DNA from: Phycisphaerales bacterium
GTDB lineage: Bacteria > Planctomycetota > Phycisphaerae > Phycisphaerales > UBA1924
Direction: 5' to 3'
Assembly: GCA_029260315.1 (NCBI GenBank)
Contig: JAJDDM010000008.1
Location: 1 to 64,000 of the forward strand
DNA: 64,000 nucleotides
Below are positions 13,539 to 33,734 of the stretch, one piece after another (within the stretch, counting starts at the first letter, position 1; each line of letters starts with the position of its first letter). Under the pieces are notes generated by a model. That model worked only from the letters and a program-made list of their open reading frames with translations, was not told the origin of the DNA and searched no databases. The translations under genes and the position numbers were made by a program.

Positions 13539-13987
13539 ATGCCGCAATCATTGGCGCGAATACACATCCATCTCGTCTACAGCACCAAGCACAGGGAGCC
13601 TCTGCTAACCGATGGCGTCCGCGAGGCGTTACACCGCTATCAGGCCACGGTCCTGAAGAACATCGGATGCCCGCCGGTGCTCATCAACTCGATAGAGGAT
13701 CATATGTGCACGCGCTGTTCGAGTTGTCGCGGACGATGACGATCGCCAGCGCCGTGGAAGAGGTCAAGAAGTCGTCATCCAAGTGGATCAAGACGCAGGG
13801 TGTCGCGCCGTTCGCGTGGCAGGCAGGCTACGGGGCGTTCGCGGTTTCCGAGTCGAACGTGGATCAGGTGAGACGATACATCGACGGGCAGCGCGAGCAT
13901 CATCGGACGATGTCGTTCCAGGACGAATACCGGGGGTTGTTGCGGCGACACAATGTCGAGTTCGACGAGCAGTATGTGTGGGATTGA
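13539..13987 (+). pseudogene. REP-associated tyrosine transposase (RAYT/TnpA_REP, IS200-like), frameshifted
   Basis: Two abutting frames: MPQSLARIHIHLVYSTKHREPLLTD...LINSIEDH then VHALFELSRTMTIASAVEEVKKSSSKWIKTQG...FAWQAGYGAFAVSESNVDQVRRYIDGQREHH. Apparent 2-nt AT insertion at ~13704 (catATgtgcac). Confidence 0.82.
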
Positions 13988-14120: not shown

Positions 14121-15533
14121 TCAGGTCTCGTATTCGATACGTCCAAACCGCTCCGCCCGGCTGATCCGCTCGCTCGCCCAGAGCCCCGCCAAGACGAACT
14201 CCACGCAGCTCGCCCGCACCGCCGGATCCTCGCTCGCGTTCACCTCGAACGCCTTATCCCACACCGGCGGCACCCGCTTCAAGAGCTCCGCATAGTGCGC
14301 GCTCGCCAGCATATCCCCCACCTCCACCCGCACGCCCTCAGCGAAGATCTCCGCGATGTTCCCGAGACCGTGCTCATCCACATACTCCTCGAACACCACC
14401 TTGATTGCCTCGGCCAGGATCGCATCCAGCACCCGGCGCTCGGTCATCTGGTGCGCCCCCATCGTGTCCAGCTCCAGCTTGCCGATCGCACTGGAATGGA
14501 AATGCGCCAGATCGCTGATCCGCGGCGCCGCCGGCGTCAGCTCCCCCTCGACCACGATCGCCCGCCGTCGCGCACTCGCGATCATGGTTCGATAGTTCGC
14601 GATACTGAATCGAGCGCTCACTCCTGAAGTCTGATCCACATACTTGCTCTTGCGAGCCTGGCGAGACATCTCTTCGACCAGCTCGCTCATAAACCGCGGC
14701 ACCAGTACCGGATACGCGCCCCCAAGCTCCACCCCAGACTCCGCCTGCATGATCGCGATGCCGAGATCCCGCTCGCGCGGATAGTGCGTCTGGATCGTCG
14801 CCCCGATCCGATCCTTGAGCTGCGGGATCACCTTCCCCGAGCGGTTGTACGTCGTCGGGTTCGCGCTGAACAGGACCAGCACGTCCAGATCGAAGCTGAT
14901 CGGATACCCCCGGATCTGCACGTCCCGCTCTTCCAGGATATTGAACAGCCCCACCTGCACCAGATCATCCAGATCCGGCAGCTCGTTCATCGCAAACAAA
15001 CCCCGGTGCATCCGCGGGATCAATCCGAAGTGCAGCGCCTCCTCCGCGCTCATGCTCGATCCCGAGAGCAGCCTCGCCGGGTCGATCTCCCCGATGATGT
15101 CCGCAAACTTCGTCCCCGGCGCCAGCCGCTCGGCGTACCGCTCCTCCCGCCCCCACCACGCGATCGGAACCTCCTCCGCCGCCAACTCCGCCACCATCTC
15201 CCTCCCCGCCCGCGTGATCGGCCGCTCCGGATCCTCGTGCACCGGCGACCCCGGAATATCCAGATACGGCACCGCCTCATCCAGAAACCGCGTCAACAGC
15301 CGCATGATCTTGCTCTTGGCCTGCCCCTTCTCGCCCAGAAACAGCATGTCGTGCCCCGCGAGCACCGCGTGCACGATCTCCGGCACCACCGTGTCGTCAT
15401 ACCCCAGAATCCCCGGAAACAGCTCCTCGCCATCGCGAAGCATCCGCGAGAGATTCTCCTCCATCTCCCGCTTCACGCTCCGAGAGCGCCAGCCGGATTC
15501 CCGCACCTCCGCCAACGTCGTCGCTCGACTCAT
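14121..15533 (-). CDS. MoxR-family AAA ATPase / magnesium chelatase-like
   Basis: [80 protein letters not shown]. Encoded upstream of the VWA gene on the same strand. Confidence 0.88.
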
Positions 15534-15831
15534 GCCAACTCCATCCAATCGCTCCGGCGCATATCTGGACTCCCTTGACTCAACTCACTCGGTGCTCGAA
15601 GCCAAACCTCTTCACCACGCCGTACCACGGCGTATCACGGAGATCGAGACTGGAGTCTCAATCCTCTTCCCTGTCCTACTCCGTGTCACTCCGTGCAACT
15701 CCGTGGTGGATTCCTCTGTGCCCATTGTGCCCTCTGTGGTGAAACTTCCCCAGTCGATGCACCCGGGAACGGTATCCCACGACTCAACCCATTCGACCCC
15801 GGCCCCTATTCAGACGCACATACACTCTCCC

Positions 15832-17829
15832 GTGCCCATCCTCACCGCCACCAACATCCGCCACGCCTTCGGCGACCGCCTCATCCTCGATTCGGTCTCC
15901 CTCAGCATCGAGCCCGACGAACGCGTCGGCGTCGTCGGACGCAACGGCACCGGCAAATCCACCCTCCTGCGCGCCATGGGCGGCCTGCTCAAGCCCGACG
16001 CCGGCGACATCTCGCTTCGCAAGGGCGCCCGCGTCGGATTCCTCCACCAGGACCCCCAGTTCCCCAAGGGCACGACTCTCCGCGACGCCGCCGCCGAGGG
16101 CTTCGCAGAACTCGTCGACCTCCACCACCAGCTCGACGCCGTCTTTTACGACATGGAGGGCGCACAGGGCGACGCCCTCGAAAAACTCCTCCACCGCCAG
16201 AGCAACCTCGAACGCAGGATCCAGGCCGCCGGCGGCTACGCCATCGACCACAAGATCGACGCCGTTCTCCACGGTCTCGGCTTCAGCGACCCCCAGTTCT
16301 CCCTTCCCGTTGAGAAACTCTCCGGCGGGCAGCGCTCGCGCGTCGCCCTCGCCAAGCTCCTCATCGAGGACCCCGACGTCATCCTCCTCGACGAGCCCAC
16401 CAACCACCTCGACATCGACGGGCGCATCTGGCTCGAGAACTTCCTCGCAGACGAGTTCAAGGGCGCCGTCGTCCTCATCAGCCACGACCGCTACCTGCTC
16501 GACCGCGTCGTCGATCGCATCGTCGAGGTCGAACGCACCCGCCTGATCGACTACCCCGGCAACTACTCGGCGTTCCGGCGCCTCCGCGCAGAACGCAGGG
16601 AGGCCCACGGGCGCGCCTGGGAGGCAGAGCAACGCCAGTTCAAGCGCGAAGAGGCCTTCATCCGCAAGTACAAGGCCGGCCAACGCGCCAAGCAGGCCCG
16701 AGGCCGCGAGTCACGCCTCGACCGCGCACGGGCCGGCAGCGAGCTCGAAAAACCCCTCGAACGCGGCACCTTCACCTTCAACCTCCCCAAGGCCGAACGC
16801 CCCGGCGATCTCATCTTCGTCGCCCGCGACCTCGCCAAACGCTACACCCGCGACGACGGCTCCACACTCACCCTCTTCGAAGGCCTCACCGTCACCATCG
16901 AACGCGGCAAGCGCTGGGGCATCGTCGGCCCCAACGGCGCGGGCAAGACCACGCTCGTCCGCACGCTCCTCAAGCAGATCGAGCCCGACGCGGGCCGCGT
17001 CACCCTCGGCACCCGCCTCAGCGTCGGCGAGTTCAAGCAGATCGCAGACGACATCGACCCCGAGCTCACCGTCGTCCGCTACCTCCAGCGCGTCATCATG
17101 AAGGAGAACCCCGACCGCCCGCTCTCAGAACAAGAGGCCCGCGACCTCGCCGGGCAGTTCCTCTTCAGCGGTCGCGACCAGGAGAAAGAAATCGGCGTCA
17201 TGTCCGGCGGCGAGCGCGCCCGCGCCCGCCTCGCCGCCCTGCTCGCCAGCGCCAAAAACGTGCTCATCCTCGACGAACCGACCAATCACCTCGATATCCC
17301 GTCCGCCGAGCGCCTCGAGGACGCCATCGCCAACGCCTTCGACGGCACACTCATCCTCATCAGCCACGACCGCGCCCTCATCGACGCCACCTGCGACCAC
17401 CTCCTGGTCCTCGACGGCCAAGGCAACGCCCGCGTCTCCCACGGCAACTACTCCGAATGCGTAGATCGGCTCTCCGAGCCGATACCCGGTAGCACCGGCT
17501 TCCAGCCGGTCGATCAAAGCCGCGTGCGCCAGCACGCCGACCCCAGAGCATCCAACGCCCCATCACCGCCCGCATCTCCCGCCCCCTCCGACACCACCCA
17601 CAACGGCGCCGAGAAAAACCGCAAGTCCCGCCACTCCTGGATGCCCACCGACAAGCTCGAATCCCGCATCAGCGAGCTCGAAGGCCAGATCGCCCGCCTC
17701 GACGAGACCATGAACGACCCAGCGTTCTGGACCAACGCGATCAACGCCGCCGAGACCAACGCCAAACGCGACGAACTCAAAGCCCAACTCGACGAGTTCG
17801 AAGAAGAGTGGCTCACCCGCATGGACTAA
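15832..17829 (+). CDS. ABC-F family ATP-binding protein (Uup-like)
   Basis: Two ABC domains: VGRNGTGKSTLLRAMGG / LSGGQRSRVALAKLL...LLDEPTNHLDI and VGPNGAGKTTLVRTLL / MSGGERARARLAALL...LDEPTNHLDI; C-terminal coiled coil. GTG start at 15832; upstream part of ORF-track entry is spurious. Confidence 0.93.
   Translation: MPILTATNIRHAFGDRLILDSVSLSIEPDERVGVVGRNGTGKSTLLRAMGGLLKPDAGDISLRKGARVGFLHQDPQFPKGTTLRDAAAEGFAELVDLHHQLDAVFYDMEGAQGDALEKLLHRQSNLERRIQAAGGYAIDHKIDAVLHGLGFSDPQFSLPVEKLSGGQRSRVALAKLLIEDPDVILLDEPTNHLDIDGRIWLENFLADEFKGAVVLISHDRYLLDRVVDRIVEVERTRLIDYPGNYSAFRRLRAERREAHGRAWEAEQRQFKREEAFIRKYKAGQRAKQARGRESRLDRARAGSELEKPLERGTFTFNLPKAERPGDLIFVARDLAKRYTRDDGSTLTLFEGLTVTIERGKRWGIVGPNGAGKTTLVRTLLKQIEPDAGRVTLGTRLSVGEFKQIADDIDPELTVVRYLQRVIMKENPDRPLSEQEARDLAGQFLFSGRDQEKEIGVMSGGERARARLAALLASAKNVLILDEPTNHLDIPSAERLEDAIANAFDGTLILISHDRALIDATCDHLLVLDGQGNARVSHGNYSECVDRLSEPIPGSTGFQPVDQSRVRQHADPRASNAPSPPASPAPSDTTHNGAEKNRKSRHSWMPTDKLESRISELEGQIARLDETMNDPAFWTNAINAAETNAKRDELKAQLDEFEEEWLTRMD
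17461..17510 (+). repeat. Two TCC-loop palindromes inside the ABC-F gene
   Basis: GTAG-ATCGGCTC-TCC-GAGCCGAT (17461-17483) and GTAGC-ACCGGCT-TCC-AGCCGGT (17489-17510). Confidence 0.9.
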
Positions 17830-28783: not shown

Positions 28784-30691
28784 ATGGGTCAGAAGCAGTC
28801 AGCGAAGGACAACTGGCAGGATCTCGTGGCGACTTTTCTCGCAGAGCAGCAGCGGATCCGCGCCGGCGGCGGGACCAAGGCCATCGACCGCCAGCACGCC
28901 AAGAACCGCCTCACCGCCCGCGAACGGATTGTCCGCGTGGTCGACCCCCGGGTAGATCGGCTCTCCGAGCCGATGCGCACCGCAGCCGAATCCTCCCCAA
29001 CGCCTGATCCCCACCGCGACGAGATCCCCAACTTCCAGGAACTCGCCCTCTGGTCCGCGCACGGCATGTACGCAGAGCACGGCGGCGCCCCCGCCGCGGG
29101 CGTCGTCACCGGCATCGGCCTCGTCCACGACCGCCCGCACATGGTCATCGCCAACGACGCGACGGTGAAGGCCGGCGCGTTCTTCCCGATGACCTGCAAG
29201 AAGATCATCCGGGCGCAGCACATCGCGCGGATGGCCCGCCTGCCCCTGATCTATCTCGTGGACTCGGCGGGCGTGTTCCTGCCCATGCAAGAAGACGTCT
29301 TCCCCGACACCGACGACTTCGGGCGGATCTTCTACCTCAACAGCGTCCTCTCCGCCGAGGGCGTCCCCCAGCTCGCGGCGATCATGGGCTATTGCGTCGC
29401 TGGCGGGGGGTATCTGCCCGTCCTCTGCGACACCTTACTGATGACCGAGGGCTCGGGGTTGTATCTCGCGGGACAGGCGCTCGTGAAGGCCGCGATCGGG
29501 CAGGAGGTCACCGACGAGGAGCTCGGCGGCGCGATGATGCACGCCGAGATCTCCGGCACGATCGACTTCAAGGAGCCCGACGACGAGGCCTGCATCGCGC
29601 GGATCCGGGAGTTGGTTCAGAAGCGGGCCGAAGCGACGGAGCGACGAAGCGACGGAGGGAGGGAGGAAGAGACGACGAGACGACCAGACGAAGAGACGAA
29701 GTCGGATTCCTCAGTCACTCATTCGCTCACTCGCTCATTCGCTCCGCCCTACCGCGACGCCTCCGACATCTATTCGACCTTCACCTCCACACCCGGCTCG
29801 CAATACGACATCAACGACATCCTGGCCTGCATCGTCGATTCCCGGGTAGATCGGCTCTCCGAGCCGATGCGCAATGCGCCGACGAACGCGCCATCGCACG
29901 TTTCCAAAGGCAATATCGGCTCGGAGAGCCGATCTACTCACGAGCGCCTCGCCCCGGACTTCGACGAGTACAAGGCCGACTTCGGTCGCTCGATCGTCTG
30001 CGGCTACGCCAGTCTCGGCGGGATCCCCGTCGGCATCGTCGCCAACCAGGGCAAGCTCACCCAGCAAGCCAAGGCGGGCGGCAAGGCGGGGCCCGGCAAG
30101 TCCACCAACATGCCGCGGGTGATCTATGTCGAGGCGGCGGACAAGGCCGCGCGGTTCATCATGGACTGCAACCAGCGCAAGATCCCGCTGCTGTTCCTGC
30201 ACGACACGACGGGGTTCATGGTCGGGCGCGACAGCGAGCAGGCGGGGATCATCCGTGCCGGGGCGAAGATGGTCAACGCGATGAGCAACTCGATCGTGCC
30301 GAAGATCGTGCTGATCATGGGCGGCAGCTACGGCGCGGGCAACTACGCGATGTGCGGGCGGGCGTTCGAGCCGTTCCTCACGTTCGCCTGGCCCGGGAGC
30401 AACTGCGCCGTCATGGGCGCGGCCCAGGCGACCGGCACCCTCGCCATGATCGAGGAACGCTCCCGCCAGCGCAAGGGCGAAGAGATCGACGACCAGACGC
30501 ACAAGCAGATTCTAGACGCCGTGCGCGCGAGTTATAACGAGCAGCAGGACATTCGGTACGGGGCGGCGCGGGGGTGGGTCGATCGGATCATCGAGCCGCA
30601 CAGGACGCGCGAGGAGCTGATCGCGGCACTGGACGCGGCGCGGAACTGGGATCGGTCGCGCGAGTTCAGGACGGGCGTGTTGCAGACGTGA
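28784..30691 (+). CDS. Acyl-CoA (methylcrotonyl/propionyl-type) carboxylase beta (carboxyltransferase) subunit with in-frame repeat insertions
   Basis: MVIANDATVKAGAFFPMTCKKIIRAQHIARMARLPLIYLVDSAGVFLP; LLFLHDTTGFMVGRDSEQAGIIRAGAKMVNAMSNSIVPKIVLIMGGSYGAGNYAMCGRAFEP. Confidence 0.93.
   Translation: MGQKQSAKDNWQDLVATFLAEQQRIRAGGGTKAIDRQHAKNRLTARERIVRVVDPRVDRLSEPMRTAAESSPTPDPHRDEIPNFQELALWSAHGMYAEHGGAPAAGVVTGIGLVHDRPHMVIANDATVKAGAFFPMTCKKIIRAQHIARMARLPLIYLVDSAGVFLPMQEDVFPDTDDFGRIFYLNSVLSAEGVPQLAAIMGYCVAGGGYLPVLCDTLLMTEGSGLYLAGQALVKAAIGQEVTDEELGGAMMHAEISGTIDFKEPDDEACIARIRELVQKRAEATERRSDGGREEETTRRPDEETKSDSSVTHSLTRSFAPPYRDASDIYSTFTSTPGSQYDINDILACIVDSRVDRLSEPMRNAPTNAPSHVSKGNIGSESRSTHERLAPDFDEYKADFGRSIVCGYASLGGIPVGIVANQGKLTQQAKAGGKAGPGKSTNMPRVIYVEAADKAARFIMDCNQRKIPLLFLHDTTGFMVGRDSEQAGIIRAGAKMVNAMSNSIVPKIVLIMGGSYGAGNYAMCGRAFEPFLTFAWPGSNCAVMGAAQATGTLAMIEERSRQRKGEEIDDQTHKQILDAVRASYNEQQDIRYGAARGWVDRIIEPHRTREELIAALDAARNWDRSREFRTGVLQT
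28952..28974 (+). repeat. TCC-loop GTAG palindrome inside carboxylase gene (copy 1)
   Basis: GTAGATCGGCTCTCCGAGCCGAT, identical to 17461-17483; encodes VDRLSEP. Confidence 0.95.
29629..29742. repeat. Octamer microrepeat arrays inside carboxylase gene
   Basis: cgaagcga-cggagcga-cgaagcga-cggaggga-gggaggaa-gagacgac-gagacgac-cagacgaa-gagacgaa (29629-29700), then tcagtcac-tcattcgc-tcactcgc-tcattcgc (29711-29742). Confidence 0.92.
29846..29937. repeat. REPIN-like inverted pair of TCC-loop palindromes inside carboxylase gene
   Basis: GTAGATCGGCTCTCCGAGCCGAT (29846-29868) and its exact 23-nt reverse complement ATCGGCTCGGAGAGCCGATCTAC (29915-29937). Confidence 0.96.
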
Positions 30692-32729: not shown

Positions 32730-32786
32730 GCGCCAGCTTTGTCCAACGCTTTGGACCGCCTCGCTTCGCCGCCCTACTACTTCCCC

Positions 32787-33734
32787 ATGCCCGAGATGGT
32801 CCGCATTACGGACGTATCGCCCCGGGACGGCCTCCAGAACGAGCCCGGGTCGATTCCTACCAACGACAAGGCCCGCCTGGTGGAGCTGCTGGTCGATGCG
32901 CTGGTCGATGAGGTCGAGCTGACGAGCTTTGTGAGCCCCAAGCGGGTGCCGCAGCTCGCAGACGCCGACGACGTGCTCGAGAACGTGCTGCCGTTCAAGC
33001 GCCCGGACGTGCTCTATAGCGCGCTGGTGCCGAACGAGAAGGGCCTCGGTCGCCTGCTCTCGGCGAGCGAGCGCGCAGGCATGCCCCTCGTGGACAAGAT
33101 CGCCCTGTTCACCGCCGCGAGCGAAGAGTTCAATCAGCAGAACACCGGCGCGAGCATCGCCGAGTCAATTGAGCGGTTCGCCCTCGTCGTGCGCAAGGCC
33201 CGCGACAACGGCCTGAAGGTGCGGGCATACATCTCCTGCGTCGTCCGCTGCCCGTATCAGGGCGACATCGCCCCCGAGAAGGTCGCGGAGGTTGTGCAGA
33301 AACTCAGCGAACTCGAACCCGACGAGATTGATCTCGGCGACACGATCGGCGCAGCGACACCCGAGACGATCGTCGCCGCCCTCGACGCGGCCCGCGGTGC
33401 CAATGCCTGGGCGGAGAGCCAGGACGCCGAGACGTGGGTCGTCCACCTGCACGACACCCACGGCAGGGCCGGCGACTGCGTGGAAGCGGCGCTCGACGCG
33501 GGGATCCGCTCCTTCGACGGCTCGGCGGGCGGGCTCGGCGGGTGCCCCTTCGCCGCCGGCCCAGGCGAGCGAGCCCCGGGCAACATCGCCACCCGGACCC
33601 TCATCGAATACATCCACGCCAAAGGCTACGAGACCCGCGTCAACACCGACCGCCTCGAGCGCGCAAGCCTCTTCGCGCAGGAGCTCGTCGAGCAGGCCCA
33701 GGACCAGCACTTCGGCGGCACGGGCCTCGGATGA
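32787..33734 (+). CDS. Hydroxymethylglutaryl-CoA lyase
   Basis: VRITDVSPRDGLQNEPGSIPTNDKARLVELLVDALVDEVELTSFVSPKRVPQLADA; GGLGGCPFAAGPGERAPGNIATRTLIEYIHAKG. Confidence 0.9.
   Translation: MPEMVRITDVSPRDGLQNEPGSIPTNDKARLVELLVDALVDEVELTSFVSPKRVPQLADADDVLENVLPFKRPDVLYSALVPNEKGLGRLLSASERAGMPLVDKIALFTAASEEFNQQNTGASIAESIERFALVVRKARDNGLKVRAYISCVVRCPYQGDIAPEKVAEVVQKLSELEPDEIDLGDTIGAATPETIVAALDAARGANAWAESQDAETWVVHLHDTHGRAGDCVEAALDAGIRSFDGSAGGLGGCPFAAGPGERAPGNIATRTLIEYIHAKGYETRVNTDRLERASLFAQELVEQAQDQHFGGTGLG

Follow-up and report, generated by a model that had tools for sequence, protein, structure and literature searches.

In this study, we found that the palindromic repeats of the analysed window (the whole stretch of 64,000 nucleotides from a Phycisphaerales bacterium) are copies of one REP/REPIN family, which lies mostly within genes and is probably mobilised by an autonomous RAYT transposase that is itself nested in leuS and may be protected by this host. 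As read from the sequence, the REP is dispersed in five stop-free phases, and the sole RAYT carrying the exact REP is fused into leuS between inverted REPs, which constitutes a REPtron within a gene.

REP copies in the window and the MccB-type gene

The 23-mer GTAGATCGGCTCTCCGAGCCGAT occurs as exact matches at positions 28952-28974 (+), 29846-29868 (+), 29915-29937 (-), and 17461-17483 (+), with a chance expectation of 0 (100 shuffles). It has the architecture of a GTAG REP, a short hairpin with stem ATCGGCTC/GAGCCGAT, loop TCC, and an unpaired GTAG foot at one end (GTAG + ATCGGCTC-TCC-GAGCCGAT). The first three copies, including an intact inverted REPIN-like pair, had been described in an earlier note as TCC-loop GTAG palindromes inserted in frame in an otherwise intact carboxylase gene, and all of this is borne out: positions 28784-30691 (+) form one open frame of 635 aa that contains all three REPs and encodes a methylcrotonyl-CoA carboxylase beta-type protein (Carboxyl_trans PF01039, E 1.4e-114; best PDB match MccB 3u9r). 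An HMG-CoA lyase-like ORF at 32739-33734, ~2 kb downstream, fits a leucine-degradation cluster by eye. The fourth exact copy, at 17461, which is absent from the earlier note as is the transposase nested in frame in leuS, lies in frame close to the C-terminal end of an ABC-F type ATPase (15052-17829, +; Pfam ABC_tran, ABC_tran_Xtn, and ABC_tran_CTD; modelled start uncertain). Immediately after it, at 17489-17511, is a second REP type, GTAGCACCGGCTTCCAGCCGGTC (peptide GSTGFQPV), and hairpins related to it encode 'GTGFQPV' or 'GTGVPPV' around nested RAYTs of relatives. A 169-aa ORF of the window also has a further Y1_Tnp (RAYT-like) stretch, at 13703-13891, without the 23-mer REP as flank.

The MccB-type protein was aligned with 29 relatives. 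Site 1 holds a REP monomer (28952-28974, +) read in the VDRLSEP phase within a shared CCCGG...GCGCA context, and corresponds to a loop of variable length (2-34 residues among the relatives). This loop has 29 residues here versus 17 in L130 of the same genus (net +12 aa), and the stretch 'DPHRDEIPNF' is conserved in relatives lacking the 23-mer (L130 and L133); the loop lengths and the stretch in common with L130 thus indicate that the true insert is ~12 aa. At site 2, a REPIN-like unit (29844-29939, +) consists of a left arm (29846-29868, +), a spacer, and an inverted right arm (29915-29937, -; IGSESRS phase). The loop there has 41 residues versus 17 in close relatives (net +24 aa), and the REPIN displaces the 'VPN.(D/E)G' stretch of the relatives. 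The earlier note claimed that neither stretch has a counterpart in the family. Both sites are insertions relative to P. aeruginosa MccB (3u9r), and at site 1 the insert is shorter than claimed. Equally long insertions in homologues without the 23-mer had been named in advance as evidence against the claim, and at the length-variable site 1 this is in part what was found, since L131 and L139 have loops of equal length and no palindrome. The protein has a third extra tract at aa ~283-320, which is repetitive, lacks the 23-mer, and falls within a variable linker; a repeat tract there (29630-29760) encodes RRSDGG..EETTRRPDEETKSDSSVTHSLTRS, and the linkers of relatives are short or unrelated.

At MccB site 2 of G004 there is a different REP-like palindrome, GCCCGGCTCGGAGAGCCGGGC, which resembles the REPs GCCCGGCACTCCGTGCCGGGC flanking G004's own RAYT nested in MiaA. 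Judged from sequence, it is an independent parallel to the MccB case described here.

Genome-wide dispersal and the RAYT within leuS

The genome is a single metagenome-assembled genome (MAG) of 4.18 Mb in 195 contigs (92% complete). It contains 139 REP copies at ≤3 mismatches, 87 of them exact, whereas a reversed-pattern control gave 0, and many copies form head-to-head pairs, as is characteristic of REPINs with their tens to hundreds of copies often in inverted pairs. Using genes called by a hexamer model trained on stretches of the same genome, 128 of the 139 copies were examined: 88 are intragenic, 31 intergenic, and 9 at gene edges, where seven supply the TAG stop of the host gene with non-coding DNA beyond. 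As many as 79 of the 128 (62%) are 60 nt or more away from either gene end and have positive coding scores on both sides, so that the copies are neither purely intergenic, which the earlier note had proposed to check by a genome-wide count, nor mainly extragenic. Extragenic location is typical of REPs yet not a requirement, because intragenic copies have already been described. In the same-genus genomes G001 and G002 (incomplete, 70% and 87%) neither the REP nor the RAYT was found, versus 103 REP copies in the present genome by the same comparison.

All 79 of these copies keep the frame; none is in the TAG-reading phase and each of the other five is represented, bearing in mind that paired or tandem copies are not independent and that a copy in the stop phase would score as gene edge. 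Depending on phase they encode RSALRAD (27), IGSESRS (22), VDRLSEP (14), SARRADL (11), or RLGEPIY (5). Five phases giving five different peptides look like tolerated insertion rather than selection for one peptide, and the suggestion of a peptide-adding class of element is therefore not sustained. The intragenic REPs are distributed over 36 host genes, 34 of which have Pfam domains of conserved housekeeping proteins; as interpreted from these domains, the hosts include LeuRS, SerRS, AlaRS, ProRS, GluRS, DNA polymerase III alpha (DnaE), UvrB, PurL, CarB, two aconitases, ClpC-like, RlmN, LipA, and UppP/BacA. A single genome can thus have dozens of its proteins reshaped by a repeat family that is regarded as extragenic. 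The placement in variable loops and the five different peptides, together with the intragenic GTAG REPs described in several species (PMC3733652), would also suit ordinary, neutral debris of RAYT/REPIN activity, with the LeuRS fusion as one accident under no special retention; we regard this as a possible but unlikely explanation, and the evidence from relatives given below bears on it.

Eleven Y1_Tnp stretches are present in the genome, and one alone has the 23-mer at both ends. This RAYT is located, in frame and without a stop, in the central part of a leucyl-tRNA synthetase of 1175 aa (G000:C80:13146-16670; L092:1647-5171), where it makes up aa ~629-848 with exact inverted 23-mers at each end. 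Thus, the RAYT-type signature that had been ascribed to the palindromes is substantiated by a RAYT of the same genome flanked by exactly this REP. At the other ten Y1 loci the REP is never the immediate flank; at the second stretch (L073), REP copies are ~1 kb off, within the adjacent AlaRS gene. In alignment with T. thermophilus LeuRS, the query jumps from residue 628 to 847 at a single point of the chain. The empty site in G001 is 'YWMDGGVDLYIGG', read ..EAEAYWMDGGVDLYIGG.. there, versus ..EAEAYWMG, the RAYT, and SVDLYIGG.. here, and the site is occupied by roughly 2-30 variable residues in other relatives. No second LeuRS was found in this 92% complete assembly. A further REP lies in the same LeuRS at aa ~1009. 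A second RAYT of this genome is in frame within a Ham1/RdgB-type gene (G000:C136:1-1104; L192) and has different flanking hairpins, and the 1283-aa LeuRS L183 of the same genus (G002:C284:5500-10895) carries insertions of a different, non-RAYT kind around residues 455-460 and 915-929.

The placement in conserved essential genes recalls inteins and IStrons, and the inverted REPs could pair into a hairpin, which raises the question of whether an intein-, intron-, or bypass-like process removes the inserts post-transcriptionally or post-translationally, leaving mature proteins without them. However, frames are open across nearly all inserts and 0 of 79 copies are in the stop phase, which would be needless for RNA removal or bypass. 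Furthermore, Pfam scans of the host genes revealed no Hint or other protein-splicing domain, and an Rfam scan, confined to the LeuRS locus, gave 0 matches to group I or group II introns or IStron RNA. The intein and intron readings were rejected on these grounds, and removal of any such kind appears very improbable.

We infer instead that the RAYT is retained in the protein, that it mobilises REPs in trans, and that it is protected by its essential host. The HUH/Tyr RAYT, either as an insert domain of LeuRS or translated from an internal start, would cut and move single-stranded REP/REPIN DNA, and an insertion would survive where it leaves the frame intact in a permissive loop, as at MccB sites 1 and 2. 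The MccB REPs would then be non-autonomous passengers that the protein tolerates as padding of its loops, and no function of the peptides would be required. The autonomous copy may persist by residing in an essential single-copy gene, since a frameshift or stop in the RAYT also ruins the host protein and a clean in-frame deletion alone removes it. RAYTs are usually single-copy and behave unlike normal insertion sequences, and survival inside an essential enzyme would be a direct and testable answer to how they persist, as well as a new way for mobile DNA to remain in a compact genome.

Nested RAYTs across the class

A comparison across 81 genomes of the family gave 38 best matches to the RAYT, of which 37 are in ORFs of 368-1689 aa and one is at a contig start; in Pfam analyses, housekeeping hosts are split around the nested RAYTs. 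LeuRS hosts a RAYT in 11 genomes, where two sites are used (residue ~320 and ~626), and ValRS does so in 15 genomes (14 of this family plus an order-level relative), always at the same place. Ham1 is the host in 11 genomes, and MiaA and an aminotransferase in one each. Other families of the class have nested RAYTs in LeuRS, IleRS, PurH, GcvP, helicases, ThiE, and ValRS, the last at another site, and of the 87 strong class-wide matches, 62 belong to ORFs of 350 aa or more. Across the wider phylum, relatives of the RAYT are mostly free genes. The host genes are single-copy in nearly all genomes, with an extra LeuRS fragment in G010 and G092. Aminoacyl-tRNA synthetases can apparently tolerate a ~220-residue transposase within the catalytic chain. 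In G055, the frame of ValRS hosting a RAYT (L240, G055:C9) is apparently broken downstream, with stops in the C-terminal part.

Almost every nested RAYT bears outer inverted hairpins of its own sequence, with loops of TCC/GGA type or similar and feet such as GTAG, GTAC, and GTGG; in a few (e.g. L227, L236, and L250) no hairpin was detected on one or both sides. The motifs of RAYT (TnpA-REP) proteins are retained, as HUH, the conserved W, and the Tyr of 'Y...NP' are invariant in 24 aligned nested RAYTs, and exceptions to these near-invariant motifs are L242, without the second His, and probably L186, without the Tyr. RAYTs are expected to be stand-alone genes, and those described here are REP-flanked though continuous with host ORFs, which is a matter of arrangement and not of homology. 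In a phylogenetic tree, all 39 nested RAYTs cluster together apart from free ones (support 92/79). This grouping, the Pfam-split housekeeping hosts, the recurrence, the conserved catalytic residues, and the constant ValRS site are unlike a single accident and argue against neutral debris.

Given that the data are from MAGs and that some REP copies are close to contig ends in the present one, repeat-driven assembly or binning chimeras should also be considered. Nested RAYTs nevertheless recur in dozens of independent assemblies, where their frames are clean and open and their REPs differ; these assemblies include the named records JAJTGZ, JAPKGU, and RHKP and the single-contig genomes G084 and G148. 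The chimera reading was rejected because of this recurrence and seems scarcely credible. One record, L264 (RHKP01000029.1), from a MAG titled 'Cyanobacteria bacterium CYA N2_1', has a planctomycete-type REP and a Ham1-nested RAYT, and its label or binning may be wrong.

Hosts are strongly clustered on the RAYT tree, yet ~7 changes of host label are needed. Host and RAYT distances, which are so large that the power of the Mantel test is low, agree weakly (r 0.30, p 0.03 for ValRS; 0.13 for LeuRS; -0.05 for Ham1), and the ValRS and RAYT trees are in partial agreement. Strictly vertical inheritance is unsupported by the Mantel test, low as its power is; the weak distance agreement along with the partial tree agreement suits vertical persistence mixed with host-to-host movement or same-site replacement. 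The nested RAYTs are under purifying selection, with a dN/dS of about 0.13-0.20 that is only approximate because dS is near saturation. Such selection, and the action of several hosts on tRNA (LeuRS, ValRS, IleRS, and MiaA), would be expected if the RAYT had been domesticated as a useful host domain, for example in nucleic-acid binding, with the REPs as relics. But the hosts also include Ham1, PurH, GcvP, an aminotransferase, helicases, and ThiE, the host label changes repeatedly on the tree, LeuRS has two sites, nearly every copy keeps matched flanking REPs and catalytic residues, and many relatives have no RAYT, so that domestication is rather improbable.

In its broadest form, our explanation is that there is a Phycisphaerae-type lineage of REP transposon whose transposase is a translated insert domain of essential single-copy enzymes (LeuRS, ValRS, IleRS, Ham1, PurH, and others), which ensures that losing it would be lethal, comes back to the same sites across genomes, and seeds REPINs in frame, including those of MccB, in an intein-like lifestyle without splicing. 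We consider the chances of this generalisation to be even.

Comparison with known systems

A literature search, with poor coverage of subscription papers, found no description of RAYTs nested in housekeeping genes. In Quentin 2018, "unexpectedly long" RAYTs were set aside as fusions or annotation errors, and annotation pipelines and RAYT surveys may have dropped such genes as fusion artefacts. GTAG REPs were defined, and seen in Planctomycetes, by Di Nocera 2013 (PMC3733652), who also described in-frame intragenic copies and REP-supplied TAG stops, with most intragenic copies in O. terrae. The present family resembles the REPs/REPINs that form REPtrons with a RAYT in Pseudomonas, E. coli, and Opitutus (PMC3733652, PMC3116915, PMC6006769) in its GTAG foot, short hairpin, and inverted pairs, and likewise in having a RAYT with HUH/Tyr between copies of the same REP. 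In contrast to those families, which are mostly intergenic with a free-standing RAYT, 62% of the examined copies here are well inside genes, and the RAYT forms one continuous frame, without a stop, with the essential genes around it.

Rickettsia palindromic elements (RPEs) are also palindromes in frame within protein genes at tolerated places; in R. conorii their end tag is CGTC, and no dedicated transposase is known for repeats of the CGTC type (PMC3733652). The palindromes described here end in GTAG, lack the end tag of RPEs, and belong to an unrelated lineage.

IStrons are removed by group I splicing, and TnpA of IS200-IS605 is a Y1 HUH transposase acting on elements with hairpin ends. No group I intron was found at the LeuRS locus, and the likeness to these systems consists of the Y1 HUH chemistry and the hairpin ends. 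In inteins and homing endonuclease genes, the gene for a mobile enzyme lies in frame in conserved housekeeping genes and recurs at the same site. The nested RAYT is alike in its in-frame housekeeping location and same-site recurrence, and differs in that no splicing domain was found, the insert is apparently retained, and the enzyme is an HUH/Tyr single-stranded DNA transposase and not a homing endonuclease. In summary, the REP/REPINs of the window are known in kind and unusual by their mainly intragenic location, and what is new is the in-frame REPtron in leuS together with its recurrence across the class.
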